A stretch of 27,425 bases of DNA. Source: Cochliopodium minus. Taxonomy: Eukaryota; Discosea; Himatismenida; Cochliopodiidae. The notes beneath the pieces are model-generated. The model did no database searches, was not told the origin of the DNA, and saw only the letters and a program-made list of their open reading frames with translations. Positions 2,570 to 27,425 of the stretch are shown piece after piece (the first letter of the stretch is position 1; every line of letters begins with the position of its first letter). Both the position numbers and the translations under genes were made by a program. The DNA lies in assembly GCA_024220525.1 (NCBI GenBank), contig JAMYWO010000382.1:1-27425 (forward strand), read 5' to 3'.

Positions 2570-4129
2570 ATGGAATACTTACCCAAATATATAAGTAAAA
2601 AAAACAATATTAATCAAAATACAAATTCCATTTCATATCATTTGATTTAATCAAAATTAGGATATATTATTTTTCTTGAATTAAATATAAAACATCTTGG
2701 GAGATGGTAATATCCATTTTTATTTACTATATTGAAAATTTGTTAGCAAATATATCAAAGAATGGATCAATATTAATCAACATAAACAAATGATAATATG
2801 ATTATATTCAATCAATGATCAATTTATTTACTGAAATATAAAAATTGATCCAAATTATATTGTGCATATTAAATTCTTACAAAAAATTTTCATTATAAAC
2901 CATTTTCATACAAAGCTGTTCAATATCAAAAAGATGGAAAGAATATGCTGGTATCTTTTTACCAATTTTATAATTTTTCAATAATAAAATATTGAATTAT
3001 AAGAGGATGATGAAGTAAATATTTCAAATATATATATTTCAATTTCAAATCGACCTTCTTAGATATGGAAAATCAAAATAAAAGAATATTACAACCAAGA
3101 AGTGATCAAACCAAATAAATACGTCAATTACAAACAATTCTATCAAAAATGTAAGTATAATCAATAAAAATAATAGAATACCGATCAAAATCTAATCACC
3201 CAAACAAAGATGGTAAGAAAATCTATTTTACATTTATTTTTGAAAAAAGTTTAATAAAAATTCTCACGTGAAGCGACCAAATTTGTGGAGACATATGAAG
3301 ATATGCTTTTAGATGATTTTATAATTAAGGGTGCTTCAGAAACAGTAATTAAAAAACCAAACAGAACACAAAAAGGGACAGTTGTACAAATAACATTTGG
3401 AAGAGATGGTAAAATTTTTTTTTTCTTAAGAGCTTGATGTTCAACTAAACTTAAATAATAGTTTATATACAGGGAAGCTGCTACGGAAAAACATGTAATT
3501 ATTTTCTTTTTTAATTTTTTTTTTTCTTACTTTTTTTTTTGTAAAGATGCAATGTTATTAGGAGTATTACAAAGTAAAAGATGAATTTAATTATTTCTTA
3601 AAAAAAAACAAATTAATATCACCATAATTTTATGTATAAAGGGTTGAATCATGATCTAAAAGAACTTCAAGTTTTAATATTACAACCTACAAGAGAAACT
3701 GCCTACTCATTAGAAAAAAAACTTGTGTCACTTTCCAAATACAAGCCCGTTAATATTCAAATGTGTGTGGGCGGTGTAATTTTGGACAAAAATGTAAAAT
3801 ATAATGAAGCACAAATAATCATTGGTACACCTGGAAGATTGTTAGATTTGAATGGGAGGGGTTTGGTAAACTAAATTTTTTTTTTTTATTTTTCTCATTT
3901 TAAATTTATTTTTTTTTTTTTAAAAAAAATTTTAAAATTTAAGGTTTCTCTCGATAAAGTCAAGATTTTTGCTATGATGGAACTAGACAGAGTTTATGAC
4001 ATTGGTTTTGGGGATGTAATGGAACACTTATTCCTAAAACTCAATCACTCACAACTCATCATGGGTTCTTACGTGTTGTTGGAGGATGTCGTGAAAAGGA
4101 TGAAAAATGTTTTTATCTATACCAACTAA
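2570..4129 (+). CDS. F-box / degenerate eIF4A-like protein, copy A (short)
   Basis: Spliced model of eleven exons: 2570-2594, 2661-2706, 2916-2950, 3004-3014, 3063-3150, 3210-3212, 3274-3408, 3462-3494, 3547-3573, 3642-3865 and 3944-4129. All introns are GT-AG and phases agree; the product is 270 residues. Residues 4-44 form an F-box (LPKYI, then LGRCCSISKRWKEY, then DDEIWK), which in the family binds Skp1 in SCF ubiquitin ligases. From about residue 71 there follows an eIF4A-type RecA1 domain: ETYEDM, a changed P-loop (GSCYGKT), a good motif Ia (PTRE), a GG motif (CVGG), and motif Ib (TPGR). MELD stands in place of DEAD and GSYV in place of SAT. The frame stops right after RecA1, so RecA2 and motifs IV-VI are missing. 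ATPase activity is unlikely. The stop lies 37 bp before the start of copy B, at the duplication junction. The 3-nt exon is tentative: skipping it also keeps the frame. Confidence 0.68.
3004..3014 (+). other. 11-nt micro-exon of copy A
   Basis: An 11-base segment flanked by AG before and GTAAAT after. It encodes the acidic residues just before the IWK of the F-box tail. Copies B and C have an 11-nt exon in the same place (4561-4571 and 6537-6547) with acidic codons and GTAAGT donors. Without it the F-box and the next exon are out of frame, which makes it fairly certain. Confidence 0.7.
3210..3212 (+). other. Candidate 3-nt micro-exon of copy A
   Basis: The triplet ATG sits between an AG and a GTAAGA and divides a 123-nt gap into two introns of 59 and 61 nt, the usual size here. 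Copies B and C show TTG in the same place (4786-4788, 6762-6764), between AG and GTAAGT, with flanking introns of 57 and 68 nt. Because it is three bases long, skipping it only removes one residue, so frame alone cannot prove it. Confidence 0.45.
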
Positions 4130-5202
4130 AAAAAGAGATCTTGAAAAAAAAATAAAAAAAATTGAAATGGAATTTTTGCCAAAATATATTAGTCAGATTC
4201 TTTTGATTCTCTTTGATTTTTTTGATATATCAATCCTATTTTATTTCATAGGATGGAAAATTCTATTCGAATTTGATGTTGTTTCTCTTGGAAGATGGTA
4301 TACACTCTTATAAATTTATATACCAAATTTTTGACCCTGCTTCTCTTCAGCTGCTCTTTATCAAAATTATGGAAAGTATATTCAGGTGAGATTAAAAAAA
4401 TAATATTTATCAAATAAAAATATTGGAAAATTTCATTCAATTTGATCGAAACGAAACATCTTTCATAAATGATTCTTATATCCATCACATTATGATTTTC
4501 AATTCGTTTATATTCAAGGATAATTAAATTATATTTAATAAATTCTAAAAAATGATACAGAAGAAGAAGTGGTAAGTTGATTTACATTGAAGTTATGAAA
4601 TTGATTATAAACCAGAAAAAATTTATTATTTAATGAATAGGTTTGGAAGAACAAAATAATCAAGTTTTTTGGGGTAGAGATAGAAAGACCAACTAATATG
4701 AAAACATACAAAGAATTCTACAAAAATTGTGAGTTTATCTTGTCAATAAATCAACAATTTTTAAAACAAATAATTTTTAAAATAGTTGGTAAGTTCAAAT
4801 AAAATAATGTAAATATTGAATTTGAAATAATTTAATTTTTTAAATTGAACAAAAAGCAAAAAACAGTTTTGAAACTTTTGAAGAAATGAATTTAAAAGAA
4901 GAATTGTTGAGAGGCATTTATGCTTATGGATTCGAAAAACCTAGCTCAAGCCAAAAGGAGAGTATTGTTCATATCTCTCTTGGAAGAGATGTCTTTATAA
5001 AAGATAGAAGCGGAACAGGAAAAACGAGTAAAAAAATTCTCCAAAAAATTTTAAATTTTTAAATATTTTCAAATTGTTTAGCTTCAATGATTATTGGAAT
5101 ATTACAGAGTAAGAGAAATTCTTTTTTGTTTAAATTTTAATTTAATTTTTGAATAAAGGGATAAATTCTGAAATCAAAAATTGTCAAGCAATAATTGTTG
5201 TT
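4128..5202 (+). repeat. Direct repeat, unit 1 (5' part of copy B)
   Basis: About 1,075 bp that recurs at 6104-7177, covering the leader, the first eight exons and introns, and the first 44 bases of the last exon of copy B. By eye there are only about five differences: one A-run length change, two substitutions near the start, and a small change in the last intron. Identity drops abruptly at base 5202. Confidence 0.9.
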
Positions 5203-6036
5203 AGTAGAAGGGAAATAGCAATAACTTTGAGTCAGTTCACCAAGTACATTTCTTCATTTTTTCCATTAGTTGTCAGTCATTGTATAGTTGGAAGAGATAA
5301 AGTAGATTTTAAAAATTCACAAATTATTATTGGGACCCCTGGAAGGTTATTTTTGTCAATAAAAAAGAAAGAGATTGATGTTTCTGGTTGTAAAATTTTG
5401 GCAATTGATGATATGACTGATAACGATAGTTATGAATATTTTATCGAAGTAATATGGGATATTTGTTCCTTGGTAAATTATGATCAATTAGTAACAAATT
5501 TTATTGTTAAAAAGAGTATTTGGGAAGAAAATTTACCCAAAACTCCGTTCATATATTATCCTCTATATAATCAACTCTGTCTTAAAGAAATCAATTTATT
5601 CAAAGTGGAATTGGAAGATGAAAATCAAAAATTAGAATGTTTATTTGATGTTTTTCTATCTTTCAACATTCTATCTTGTATCATCTTTTTCAAAAACAAC
5701 AAAATTTTGGACCATGTACATTCAAACTTGTTCAAAAAAGGGTTCGATGTTGGTATTTTTGATATTCATCATCCTCACAAAGAAAAAGATAGGAAAATGA
5801 TCCTTTCTTTGGATTATAATTTTGCTTTTCATACTCTCGGAGATTTCACGATTATTAATTACAATCTTCCCTTTGTTGTTGAAAACTATCTCATAAGAAA
5901 TGGAAAGTCAGGCAAATTTGGGAGGAAGAGATATTCTCTTTCTTTTGTTACGAATAAGGACTCCGATTTCCTAAAGCAAATTGAGCATCATTACTCCGTC
6001 TTAATCAATGTACTCCCTGAGAATCTTAATTATTAA
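4167..6036 (+). CDS. F-box / degenerate eIF4A-like protein, copy B
   Basis: Spliced model: exons 4167-4191, 4252-4297, 4351-4385, 4561-4571, 4641-4728, 4786-4788, 4857-5027, 5082-5108 and 5159-6036; the product is 427 residues. Residues 4-44 are an F-box (LPKYI, then [16 protein letters not shown], then EEVVWK). Residues 73-427 align along their whole length with eIF4A (SFETFEEM, then [15 protein letters not shown] as in eIF4A). The P-loop SGTGKT (121-126) and TPGR (about 195-198) are intact. DEAD is replaced by IDDM (about 218-221) and SAT by an unrelated VTNF. Motif V is lost, and motif VI HRIGRGGR has become IRNGKSGK, without the His and with Lys for the Arg fingers. It should fold like eIF4A but not work as a helicase. 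An upstream in-frame ATG at 4107 would add 20 residues; copy C has a stop there, so 4167 is preferred. Confidence 0.75.
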
Positions 6037-6103
6037 AATTTTCCAAGAATATATAGTAATTTCAAAATGACATCTTTGATTTCTGAGCTATTGGATTAAT
6101 TTG

Positions 6104-7177
6104 AAAAAAAAGAGATCTTGAAAAAAAATAAAAAAAATTGAAATGGAAATTTTGCCAAAATATATTCGTCAGATTCTTTTGATTCTCTTTGATTTTTTTG
6201 ATATATCAATCCTATTTTATTTCATAGGATGGAAAATTCTATTCGAATTTGATGTTGTTTCTCTTGGAAGATGGTATACACTCTTATAAATTTATATACC
6301 AAATTTTTGACCCTGCTTCTCTTCAGCTGCTCTTTATCAAAATTATGGAAAGTATATTCAGGTGAGATTAAAAAAATAATATTTATCAAATAAAAATATT
6401 GGAAAATTTCATTCAATTTGATCGAAACGAAACATCTTTCATAAATGATTCTTATATCCATCACATTATGATTTTCAATTCGTTTATATTCAAGGATAAT
6501 TAAATTATATTTAATAAATTCTAAAAAATGATACAGAAGAAGAAGTGGTAAGTTGATTTACATTGAAGTTATGAAATTGATTATAAACCAGAAAAAATTT
6601 ATTATTTAATGAATAGGTTTGGAAGAACAAAATAATCAAGTTTTTTGGGGTAGAGATAGAAAGACCAACTAATATGAAAACATACAAAGAATTCTACAAA
6701 AATTGTGAGTTTATCTTGTCAATAAATCAACAATTTTTAAAACAAATAATTTTTAAAATAGTTGGTAAGTTCAAATAAAATAATGTAAATATTGAATTTG
6801 AAATAATTTAATTTTTTAAATTGAACAAAAAGCAAAAAACAGTTTTGAAACTTTTGAAGAAATGAATTTAAAAGAAGAATTGTTGAGAGGCATTTATGCT
6901 TATGGATTCGAAAAACCTAGCTCAAGCCAAAAGGAGAGTATTGTTCATATCTCTCTTGGAAGAGATGTCTTTATAAAAGATAGAAGCGGAACAGGAAAAA
7001 CGAGTAAAAAAATTCTCCAAAAAATTTTAAATTTTTAAATATTTTCAAATTGTTTAGCTTCAATGATTATTGGAATATTACAGAGTAAGAGAAATTCTTT
7101 TTTGTTTAAATTTCATTTAATTTTTGAATAAAGGGATAAATTCTGAAATCAAAAATTGTCAAGCAATAATTGTTGTT
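6104..7177 (+). repeat. Direct repeat, unit 2 (5' part of copy C)
   Basis: Second copy of the 4128-5202 segment at an offset of 1,976 bp (1,975 after a one-base loss in the last intron). The offset defines the size of the duplicated gene unit. Introns are as conserved as exons here, which points to recent duplication or gene conversion and not to selection on protein. Confidence 0.9.
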
Positions 7178-8017
7178 CGCACTAGGGAAATAGCAATATC
7201 TTTGAGTTATCATACCAAAAAGATCTCCAATTATTGTAATGTGGAAATTAATTTTTGCGTATCTGGTACTGAAAAAATTAATTTTAAAAATACTCACATT
7301 ATTATTGGGACCCCTGGAATGTTACTTTTGTCAATAAAAAAGAAAGAGATTGATATTTCTGGTTGTAAAATTTTGGCAATTGATGATTTGTGTTATATCT
7401 CTGAACATCAAAATCTTTTATGTAACACAAAGCGTATCTGTTCACAAGTAAATTACAATCAATTTATTGCTAATTCTTATCTCAAAAATAAACTTTGGGA
7501 TGAAAATTTAATGAAGAACCCATTCGTGTATGACCCTGAATATAATGAACCTACATTGGATGAAATTATGCATTTCAAAGTGGAATTGGAAGATGAAAAT
7601 CAAAAATTAGAGTGTTTGTTTGATCTTTGTTATTCTTTTAAAGTTCTTCCTTGTATCATCTTTTTCAAAAACAATAAAATTTTGGACCATGTACATTCAG
7701 AGTTGTTCAAAAAAGGGTTTGATGTTGGTATTTTTGATTATTATGATCCTTTTAAAGAAATAGACAAGAAAATGATTCTTTCTGTTGATTATAATTTTGC
7801 TTTTCATTCTTTCAGAAATTTTTCGATTATCAATTACAATCTTCCACTTCTTGTTGAAAATTATCTCATTAGGAATGGAAAATTACCAGGGAGATTAGGT
7901 CTTAAAAGATTGTCCATTTCCTTTGTCACAAATGGAGACTCCGATTTCCTAAAGCAAATTAAAAATCATTTCTCTATCTTTATCAATGATCTCCCTGATA
8001 ATCTTAAAAATTTTTAA
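6143..8017 (+). CDS. F-box / degenerate eIF4A-like protein, copy C
   Basis: Spliced model: exons 6143-6167, 6228-6273, 6327-6361, 6537-6547, 6617-6704, 6762-6764, 6833-7003, 7058-7084 and 7134-8017; the product is 429 residues. The F-box and the helicase N-part through the P-loop SGTGKT match copy B except for one residue near the start (MEILP against MEFLP). The last exon is eIF4A-like but differs from B in about a third of its residues by eye. Motif Ia is VVRTREIA, motif Ib is TPGM, the DEAD position is IDDL, and motif VI is [11 protein letters not shown]. Blocks such as [17 protein letters not shown] and [16 protein letters not shown] are unchanged between B and C, whereas the segments after motif Ia and after motif II vary strongly. 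An in-frame TGA just upstream fixes the start at 6143. The stop is 65 bp before the ubiquitin-like gene. Confidence 0.75.
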
Positions 8018-13723: not shown

Positions 13724-14832
13724 TTAAAGCTTAGAAACACCCTTTCTGGTGAGCTCTGCAGTGATCTTTCCAGAAGGAGCAGAAACAGGATTGAATACAT
13801 TGAATCTGTTCTTTCTTCCAAAACGAGAAAGATCAACGGTCCAGTTATGTTTGTTAGGCAAAACGAGTTTGATAGTATTTAATTCAGGAAATTTCTCCAT
13901 AATGATTTTTTGAGCTCTGTACATAGTATCTTGGACACTGTATGAATAGGTCTCTGCTACTACTTCGAGGATGGTTTGTTTGACACCTTCCCATACTTTG
14001 GTGTAGTTTACGTTTTTGTAGGTTGGGTTGTATTGCCATGTTGCGTTGACGATGGTAGAAAAGATTCTGTCATCATCTTCTGGGAGCACAGTAAATTCAC
14101 ATTTGTGGAAATCTACAAATCCTGATCTGTCAAAAAAAAGAAGAGTTTAAAAACTGAAAGATTATTGATTATTTTGATAAATAAATAATAAATTGATTCC
14201 AAATAATTTATTATAAATTTAATTAAAAATATTTCTTACTGTGTTGTCTTGAGAATAAGCAAATCATCCTATAAGATAAAAAAGAATAAGAATAATTTTT
14301 TGTGAGAGGAAGATTTTTTTTTTTTAAAGTAAAATATTTGATTCAAATAAAAGGATTATAAGATATAAGACATTAATAAGGATTTTACAATTCCAGATTG
14401 TACTGTAGTTCCATTTCTTCCTGCTTTTATAACTGCAGTTCTCACTGCGGGGGTAGCTCTTTGAAAAGAATAAGGATGAGGCTTATTGTTGATCACCATA
14501 CGCTCCCATAAATGCTCAATAATAGATACGTGTGCAATAGATACGAGGGAATATTTGCTCAATACAAATTGACCCAAATTTATTGCAAATGTTTCAATAT
14601 CCTCAAAATCCTCATCAAATGCTCTTACGTATACCAAATTTTTGCATGTATCAGTTGGAATGACATTCTTATTGCTTGCTTTAGTGAAACTCTCCTCGAA
14701 ATCCCCCTCCAACAACAATTCTACAGTCAATTCCTTGAGCAAATGCTTTTCTGGTCTTCTTACAACTTTTACCAATCTTACATTAGCTTTACCATGGCTA
14801 TTGAATGAAATAACAAAATCTTCCTTGCTCAT
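13724..14832 (-). CDS. Urate oxidase (uricase), peroxisomal signal SKL
   Basis: Spliced model on the minus strand: 14832-14389, 14268-14240 and 14126-13724, giving 291 residues, normal for uricase. It oxidises urate with O2 to 5-hydroxyisourate and H2O2 in purine breakdown. Family marks: KANVRLVKVVRR near the N-terminus with the candidate catalytic Lys, IPTDTCKNLVYV containing the Thr of the Lys-Thr pair, QSGI-DDLLILKTTQSGF across the two introns, FTVLPEDDDRIFST, and LPNKHNWTVDLSRFG with the active-site His. The last three residues are SKL, a canonical PTS1, so import into peroxisomes is expected. The 29-nt middle exon is required to rebuild the conserved LKTTQSGF. It is convergent with the acyltransferase gene (150 bp between the stops). 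Confidence 0.93.
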
Positions 14833-15187
14833 TATAATTATTTAGTTTTATTTGATTTTTTTTAAATTTTATCAAAATCAATTTTATTTTTTAATTATAT
14901 TTTATATTTTCGCCTTTCATTTTGATTATCTACATGAATTTGAAAGAGGAAGTAGAATTGAATTGAGATTTCTTGTGGATGTCATTTAAAAAAAAATTGA
15001 AAAGAAATTGAAATTAATTAATTAAATTTGGACATAAATTATTAATTTAAATAAATTTAGATTAAAATAACTCTAAATTGTTGATCAAAATACCTTTGAA
15101 AAGAAATTTTTTATTCAATATTTTATTCAATCTTTCGATTTGATAAAAAAAAAGAAATATAACAAAAAATAAATAAACAAAAATATT
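14833..15187. other. Intergenic, no gene seen
   Basis: AT-rich spacer between the 3' end of the tRNA-ribosyltransferase gene and the start of the uricase gene, both on the minus strand. No RNA gene or repeat was recognised; it should contain the uricase promoter. Confidence 0.55.
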
Positions 15188-26455: not shown

Positions 26456-27425
26456 ATGTTATTCAACGAAAATTTCCTGGAATATGTATCCAAAAGTAGT
26501 TCATCAATCGATTTCATGCAGGCATTGAAAAGGGCAAAAGAAGAGAGCATAAAGTTGCAGAATCAAAATACCAATGATTCAACAAGGATAATGGAGAGAA
26601 TAAAAAAATTCAATCTTCATCTCAATCCAGATACTGGTATTAATTATCATAAAATTAAATTCATACAACAAAAAATTTCCTGTTAAAATATAAATGAGGA
26701 TGAATAATGTATATGTTTCATTTTGCATGATATATTCCCATTTATATCCTTTTATACACATTTCATTATTATTTTCAGCTTAACAAAATTTCATTTTGAA
26801 AATAGACAATACTGGTGATTGTCAATTCGATTCTGTAGCAGATCAATTAAAACTTGTAGATAAGAAATATGATGGGATAACAAAGGAAGATGTGAGGAAC
26901 ATCTCAATAGATTGGCTAAGAAAAAATGGAGATTATAAACTTGACTCAGAGGATCCACAAAGTGAAACATTAAGATCATGGTAAAGAATATTAAAAAGAG
27001 AATTATTATTATGTCAAGAAATTTTATTATTAGGTCATTCATTTATCATTAATACTATTTATGATTCAAAATACCATATTGGGATAATAACCCTTTATTA
27101 AAAAGAAATTATTAATATGTTAAGAAATTTCGGACAATTTAGTTTTACTAAAAGAATATAATTTTAATTATAAAAGAATAGACTTATTTAGAAATCCCAT
27201 TATACTTGTTTTTTTTTTTTTTTCTATTTTAAGGGTATATATCACTCAAGATTGTTTGGATTGGAATGCATATTGCGATAAAATGAGCAAAGCACGCGAA
27301 TGGGGAGATGAGGTAAGAAAAAATAAATCATAATAACAAGAAATAGCTTAAAAATATCATCATTTAGTTTATATTTATAAAAAGAATCTTAAAATTAAGA
27401 TATTTGTTCATTAATACAAGTTAAC
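26456..27425 (+). CDS. OTU-family cysteine protease, 3' end outside window
   Basis: Spliced exons 26456-26636, 26806-26980 and 27234-27312 are visible, in consistent phase, giving the first 145 residues; a GTAAGA donor at 27313 shows that the gene goes on past the window. OTU proteases cut ubiquitin from substrates. The catalytic block is DNTGDCQFDSVADQL, with the Cys after Gly-Asp, followed by EDVRNISIDWLRKNG and then YCDKMSKAREWGDE, which is the usual 'W..Y...M...G.WGD' segment of the OTU fold. The catalytic His lies beyond the window. The N-terminal 60 residues are a polar, helical leader (FMQALKRAKEESIKLQ). It is the second recognisable ubiquitin-system component in the window besides the F-box cluster. 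Confidence 0.85.

Follow-up and report, generated by a model that had tools for sequence, protein, structure and literature searches.

Three tandem genes of Cochliopodium minus predicted to join an F-box to a degenerate eIF4A-type helicase core

The window analysed here, a stretch of 27,425 nucleotides from Cochliopodium minus (contig JAMYWO010000382.1 of assembly GCA_024220525.1; G+C content 28.6%), contains three tandem predicted genes, A, B and C, which fill positions 2570-8017 of the + strand and in which exons for an N-terminal F-box region are followed by exons for a helicase core that descends from the translation factor eIF4A and has lost much of its active site. A sequence-only reading of the window had proposed such a tandem family, and the spliced models of all three genes are indeed open across this region. 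We suggest that the products may act as substrate receptors of SCF (Skp1-Cul1-F-box) ubiquitin ligases, with the degenerate helicase copy as bait. The gene models were built by hand from splice sites, checked by script and are known from DNA sequence alone; genome-wide searches cover the 44.65-Mb assembly of 598 contigs.

Results and Discussion

Gene models and F-box

The predicted genes and their parts, all on the + strand, are as follows.

2570-4129, +, gene A: 11 exons, 270 residues, F-box and RecA1 only (spliced model, Pfam, PDB match)
2570-2594, 2661-2706, 2916-2950, 3004-3014, 3063-3150, 3210-3212, +, gene A, exons 1-6 (spliced model)
3274-3408, 3462-3494, 3547-3573, 3642-3865, 3944-4129, +, gene A, exons 7-11 (spliced model)
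2570-3071, +, F-box of gene A: residues 1-42, spread over five exons (Pfam PF12937, PF00646)
4167-6036, +, gene B: 9 exons, 427 residues, F-box and degenerate RecA1-RecA2 (spliced model, Pfam, PDB match)
4167-4191, 4252-4297, 4351-4385, 4561-4571, 4641-4728, 4786-4788, 4857-5027, 5082-5108, 5159-6036, +, gene B, exons
6143-8017, +, gene C: 9 exons, 429 residues, F-box and degenerate RecA1-RecA2 (spliced model, Pfam)
6143-6167, 6228-6273, 6327-6361, 6537-6547, 6617-6704, 6762-6764, 6833-7003, 7058-7084, 7134-8017, +, gene C, exons
3210-3212 (A), 4786-4788 (B), 6762-6764 (C), +, candidate 3-nucleotide microexon (ATG in A), flanked by AG and GT
3574-3641 (A), 5109-5158 (B), 7085-7133 (C), +, phase-1 intron in the Arg codon after Leu-Gln
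4192-5137 (B) against 6168-7113 (C), +, 946-bp block without mismatch, introns included (mismatch positions, identity profile)

According to the script check, the spliced genes are free of inner stop codons and all introns are of the GT-AG type, while a frame of 290 codons would, given the composition of the local introns, remain open by chance with p ~1e-14. The F-box half has one and the same exon plan in A and in B/C, and this extends to the candidate microexon, which sits in the same place between the F-box-side and the helicase exons of all three genes and on which the reading frame does not depend.

The F-box call withstood a hidden Markov model (HMM) check for gene A, which exceeds the Pfam cut-offs both for F-box-like (PF12937, cut-off 24.3 bits; 26.9 bits for the whole protein and 29.7 for the first 80 residues) and for F-box (PF00646, cut-off 20.5; 21.6 and 24.2 bits, respectively). 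Matches at the same position in the other two genes fall short of the cut-offs: gene B reaches 13.5 bits for F-box-like (16.8 over the first 80 residues) and 15.2 bits for F-box over the first 80 residues, and gene C reaches 13.4 and 12.9 bits. Between A and B, 25/44 residues are identical within the F-box and 8/28 within the linker that follows, against 31.8% identity across the helicase part, and we thus take the F-box to be the better kept portion. The genome further holds 6 matches to Skp1, 29 matches to cullin exons (cullins in general rather than Cul1 specifically) and, from 469 first-look candidates, 150 scored F-box matches.

Descent of the helicase core from eIF4A

All three spliced proteins lie well above the Pfam cut-off for the DEAD family (26 bits), with 70.7 bits for A, 57.7 for B and 64.0 for C, in line with the core type that had been read from the exons; no UvrD family appears among their Pfam matches at E-values up to 1. 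The best PDB match of gene B in a phmmer search is yeast eIF4A (1.6e-48, residues 68-425), with eIF4A-III next (4.5e-46) and Dhh1 lower down (2.2e-33), and that of gene A is the N-terminal domain of eIF4A-I (7.7e-27). B and C possess both RecA domains, whereas the model of A ends after RecA1; the fusion as originally read, an F-box joined to an eIF4A-like core, hence holds in full length for B and C and in A for the first RecA domain.

The genome encodes an eIF4A-I-like protein on contig C130 (516 bits, against 484 for eIF4A-III) and an eIF4A-III-like protein on contig C119 (614 bits, against 529 for eIF4A-I; one exon junction of this model is approximate). The phase-1 intron listed above recurs at the same place and in the same phase in the C130 gene and is absent there from both C119 and a divergent paralogue on contig C39. 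A tree separates A+(B,C) from the eIF4As with 99-100% support. Since this tree comprises seven sequences with long branches, we regard the shared intron as the stronger evidence of origin. Intron and tree together, both read from sequence, point to a DNA-level duplication of a C130-type eIF4A gene as the source of the fusion, and with the PDB matches they uphold the derivation from eIF4A.

The degenerate active site that had been noted is likewise apparent. Motif II, DEAD in the parent, reads MELD in A, DDMT in B and DDLC in C; the SAT of motif III is lost; motif V (TTDLLARGID) is altered in B and in C; and motif VI (HRIGRSGR) has become IRNGKSGK in B and IRNGKPGR in C and is absent from A. 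The glutamine of the Q motif and the GKT of Walker A are retained in all three proteins, A having SCYGKT for SGTGKT. Judged from these motifs, A, B and C are very probably dead as ATPases. We also compared 168 alignment columns that are identical in the C130 eIF4A, the C119 eIF4A-III and yeast eIF4A, 52 of which lie in ten motifs as defined by us. B keeps 25/52 of the motif columns, C 26/52 and A 19/32 of those it spans, against 53/116 (Fisher p 0.87), 52/116 (0.62) and 19/47 (0.11) of the other invariant columns, respectively. Motif and other columns being kept alike, the core is relaxed throughout, the active site being no better protected than the rest. The C39 paralogue, in contrast, clearly favours its motifs (46/52 versus 65/116; Fisher p 3.6e-5); no F-box is listed near it among the 150 scored matches of the genome search.

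Relation between B and C

The 946-bp block shared by B and C could reflect gene conversion, a recent duplication or misassembly, and the two proteins differ at one position among their first 133 residues. Their last exons have diverged, with rates of 0.232 for non-synonymous (dN) and 0.460 for synonymous (dS) change and thus a ratio of 0.50; the contrast between the two classes is significant (Fisher p ~9e-5, from rounded counts), which shows, as far as substitution patterns can, that this exon has been under constraint. A search for positive selection gave one of 13 overlapping 40-codon windows with dN/dS of 5.68 (28.5 non-synonymous and 1.5 synonymous changes), a nominal value of which we make no use.

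Search for further F-box-eIF4A genes

When the genome was searched with A and B, other F-box loci matched weakly; some of these matches, on contigs C169, C518 and C351, cover query residues 1-103, 2-99 and 1-97 and so extend beyond the F-box into the first part of the helicase. (Two pieces on C518 that looked SPRY-like by eye had no match in Pfam.) When the C130 eIF4A was compared by blastp with 2150 open reading frames (ORFs) of at least 20 residues on one strand of 54 loci, matches were confined to the known eIF4A loci (L002-L004) and occurred at 0/51 F-box loci. A comparison by eye of the DEAD and F-box match lists showed no DEAD match closer than 5 kb to any F-box in the list, the nearest being ~9 kb away on contig C358; this comparison is insensitive, both lists missing A, B and C, whose exons are short. 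In viral contigs scanned with protein B, 20 pattern matches appeared, 0 of which were confirmed by tblastn. No F-box-eIF4A fusion was found in the literature searched, which left most subscription papers and the preprint servers outside; this agrees with the earlier statement that no such family was known, our genome searches speaking for this genome only.

F-boxes next to other nucleoside triphosphatases

We surveyed 51 F-box loci (L001, L005-L054), a non-random set chosen by similarity to gene A or by high F-box score. ORFs on the F-box strand were read by eye and only suspicious pieces were run through Pfam, so that the counts are lower bounds. At least 5/51 loci (on contigs C114, C11, C54, C224 and C185) have a Ras-family match above the cut-off that follows the F-box in the same orientation, the one on C185 barely so (23.3 versus 21.6 bits); a further match on C23 is weak (16.5 bits). 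These joins are unspliced and the partners could be separate neighbours on the same strand. An F-box combined with a copy of a nucleoside triphosphatase (NTPase) looks like a theme in this genome. One might speculate further, though we think it rather doubtful, that there is a lineage-specific class of SCF receptors, kept in tandem arrays, in which an F-box is joined to a degenerate version of a housekeeping NTPase (eIF4A, Rho or Ras) and which would mimic the parent proteins, so as to capture and destroy their partners or attackers.

The locus L035 (C11:122600-130300) comprises five tandem units of an F-box and a Rho-like GTPase, with the GTPase pieces of two units checked by Pfam; the array has CAAX-like ends (CNLF, CIFF, CTLF, CFLF and CILF) and switch regions that appear partly degenerate by eye. 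L001 (C114:71500-78500) contains three units with an F-box; Ras/Rab-like exons lie downstream in two of them, and the third is apparently truncated. At L017 (C256:24483-26974) a PP2C-type phosphatase match (46.4 bits) follows the F-box on the same strand, L015 has two GTPase-like pieces without Pfam match, and several other F-box loci carry WD40-like repeats by eye. Small GTPases are very numerous in the genome at large (771 first-look candidates for PF00071, 150 of them scored).

Comparison with known systems

FBH1/FBXO18 likewise combines an F-box and a helicase core in one protein, its localisation requires SCF assembly, and the roles of its F-box and helicase are distinct; however, it is a DNA helicase related to UvrD, and its helicase function is important (PMC2294136), whereas A, B and C have a degenerate core of the eIF4A type. 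From eIF4A (DDX2) itself, with which B and C share descent across RecA1 and RecA2, A across RecA1, and all three the intron of the genome's eIF4A-I-type gene, they differ by changes in motifs II, III, V and VI (in A also motif I), by the added F-box and, for A, by the lack of RecA2. Utp25 is a helicase-like protein that has been called a pseudohelicase; it is, however, a component of the small-subunit processome, and the accessible part of its description mentions no F-box (PMC9539457). Parallels in design are the Rho-related RhoBTB1 (PMC10413933) and ADP-ribosylation factor (ARF) GTPases with an F-box or BTB domain (PMC8358228), in which an NTPase fold is joined to a cullin-RING adaptor domain. 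Fusion of an F-box to an NTPase is thus already published, and ARF-family GTPases are described as having been recruited recurrently into ubiquitin-dependent circuits (PMC8358228). Both are GTPases, though, and RhoBTB1 employs BTB and Cul3 and binds PDE5 by its C-terminal half (PMC10413933). Finally, an F-box ligase, SKP2, has been reported to act on the eIF4A partner PDCD4 (PMC6375223).

Proposed role and competing explanations

We propose, with confidence that is about evenly divided, that A, B and C are SCF substrate receptors which use a degenerate eIF4A mimic as bait for ubiquitination. The sequence-only reading had likewise suggested a substrate receptor, or else a decoy of eIF4A. If the genes are expressed, the N-terminal F-box would dock on Skp1, and the C-terminal eIF4A copy, presumably without ATPase activity, would provide the substrate-binding module, formed in A by RecA1 alone and in B and C by RecA1 together with RecA2. 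Binders of the eIF4A fold would be recruited, possibly eIF4G- or PDCD4-like partners with MIF4G/MA3 domains or foreign proteins that target eIF4A, and the recruited proteins would become ubiquitinated. F-box receptors usually recognise substrates via domains such as WD40 or leucine-rich repeats (LRR). If the proposal is correct, it would exemplify a simple route to new ligase specificity, namely to duplicate a hub protein, disable the copy and add an F-box; and since the partners of the parent eIF4A are known, the substrates could be guessed and directly tested. Several points weigh against it: (i) the genes are predictions from DNA sequence, (ii) the F-boxes of B and C score below the Pfam cut-offs (12.9-16.8 bits), (iii) gene A has no RecA2, (iv) the retention of motif versus non-motif columns gives no sign that a partner-binding surface has been specifically kept, (v) the predicted structure of the last exon of gene B has a mean predicted local distance difference test score (pLDDT) of 33.5, from an alignment of two rows with C as the other row, and is thus too poor for a fold search, and (vi) the analogue RhoBTB1 is described as binding its known substrate through a part other than its GTPase domain (PMC10413933).

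The same degeneration could be accounted for if the proteins were dominant-negative regulators of eIF4A, with the helicase copy competing for eIF4A partners and the F-box either not directing SCF to the bound target or only shortening the lifetime of the protein. The partial retention of eIF4A sequence beside degenerate motifs would fit, as would the roles of F-box proteins beyond SCF baits that have been discussed (PMC1712225). We nonetheless judge this unlikely, the F-box being better conserved between A and B than the helicase. Quite unlikely, too, is that the genes are functionless, decaying pseudogenes or recent chimaeras: degenerate catalytic residues, the truncation of A and an identical B/C half that may stem from young duplication or misassembly could be read in this way, but three genes open across 9-11 exons with usable splice sites, ~290 open codons at an AT-rich composition and the last-exon dN/dS of 0.50 speak for maintenance. 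eIF4A, Ras and Rho are hubs attacked by pathogens, and the eIF4A copy might accordingly be an integrated decoy which mimics the target of a parasite or virus while the F-box marks the attacker's protein, with the F-box-Rho and F-box-Ras loci as parallel decoys. The joining of F-boxes to copies of all three hubs, the tandem arrays and the patchy B/C divergence are compatible with this idea, to which we give slightly less credence still, the overall dN/dS of the last exon being 0.50 and the single elevated window being one of 13 that overlap. Least probable by far is a split of the F-box and the helicase exons between separate mRNAs. The joins do come from splice-site models, and the helicase exon of B has an early in-frame Met (FEEM); yet exon order, phase-1 joins and the microexon-like triplet are the same in A and B/C despite ~32% helicase identity, and the gap from the last F-box-side exon to the helicase exon is only ~125 nucleotides.

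Other features of the window and genome

8090-8394: small ubiquitin-like ORF shortly after the end of gene C (PF00240, sub-threshold at 22.5 bits; cut-off 25.4)
13724-14841, - strand: uricase (Pfam, first exon), the last ORF ending in SKL
26784-26984: ORF with the stretch GDCQFDSVADQL, without Pfam match

The terminal SKL is a peroxisomal signal, and uricase is an enzyme that uses oxygen. The stretch GDCQFDSVADQL we take to be an OTU-protease-like motif. Elsewhere in the genome, a single match to the Fe-hydrogenase family lies in a frame of 506 residues, a length that would presumably fit cytosolic Nar1.

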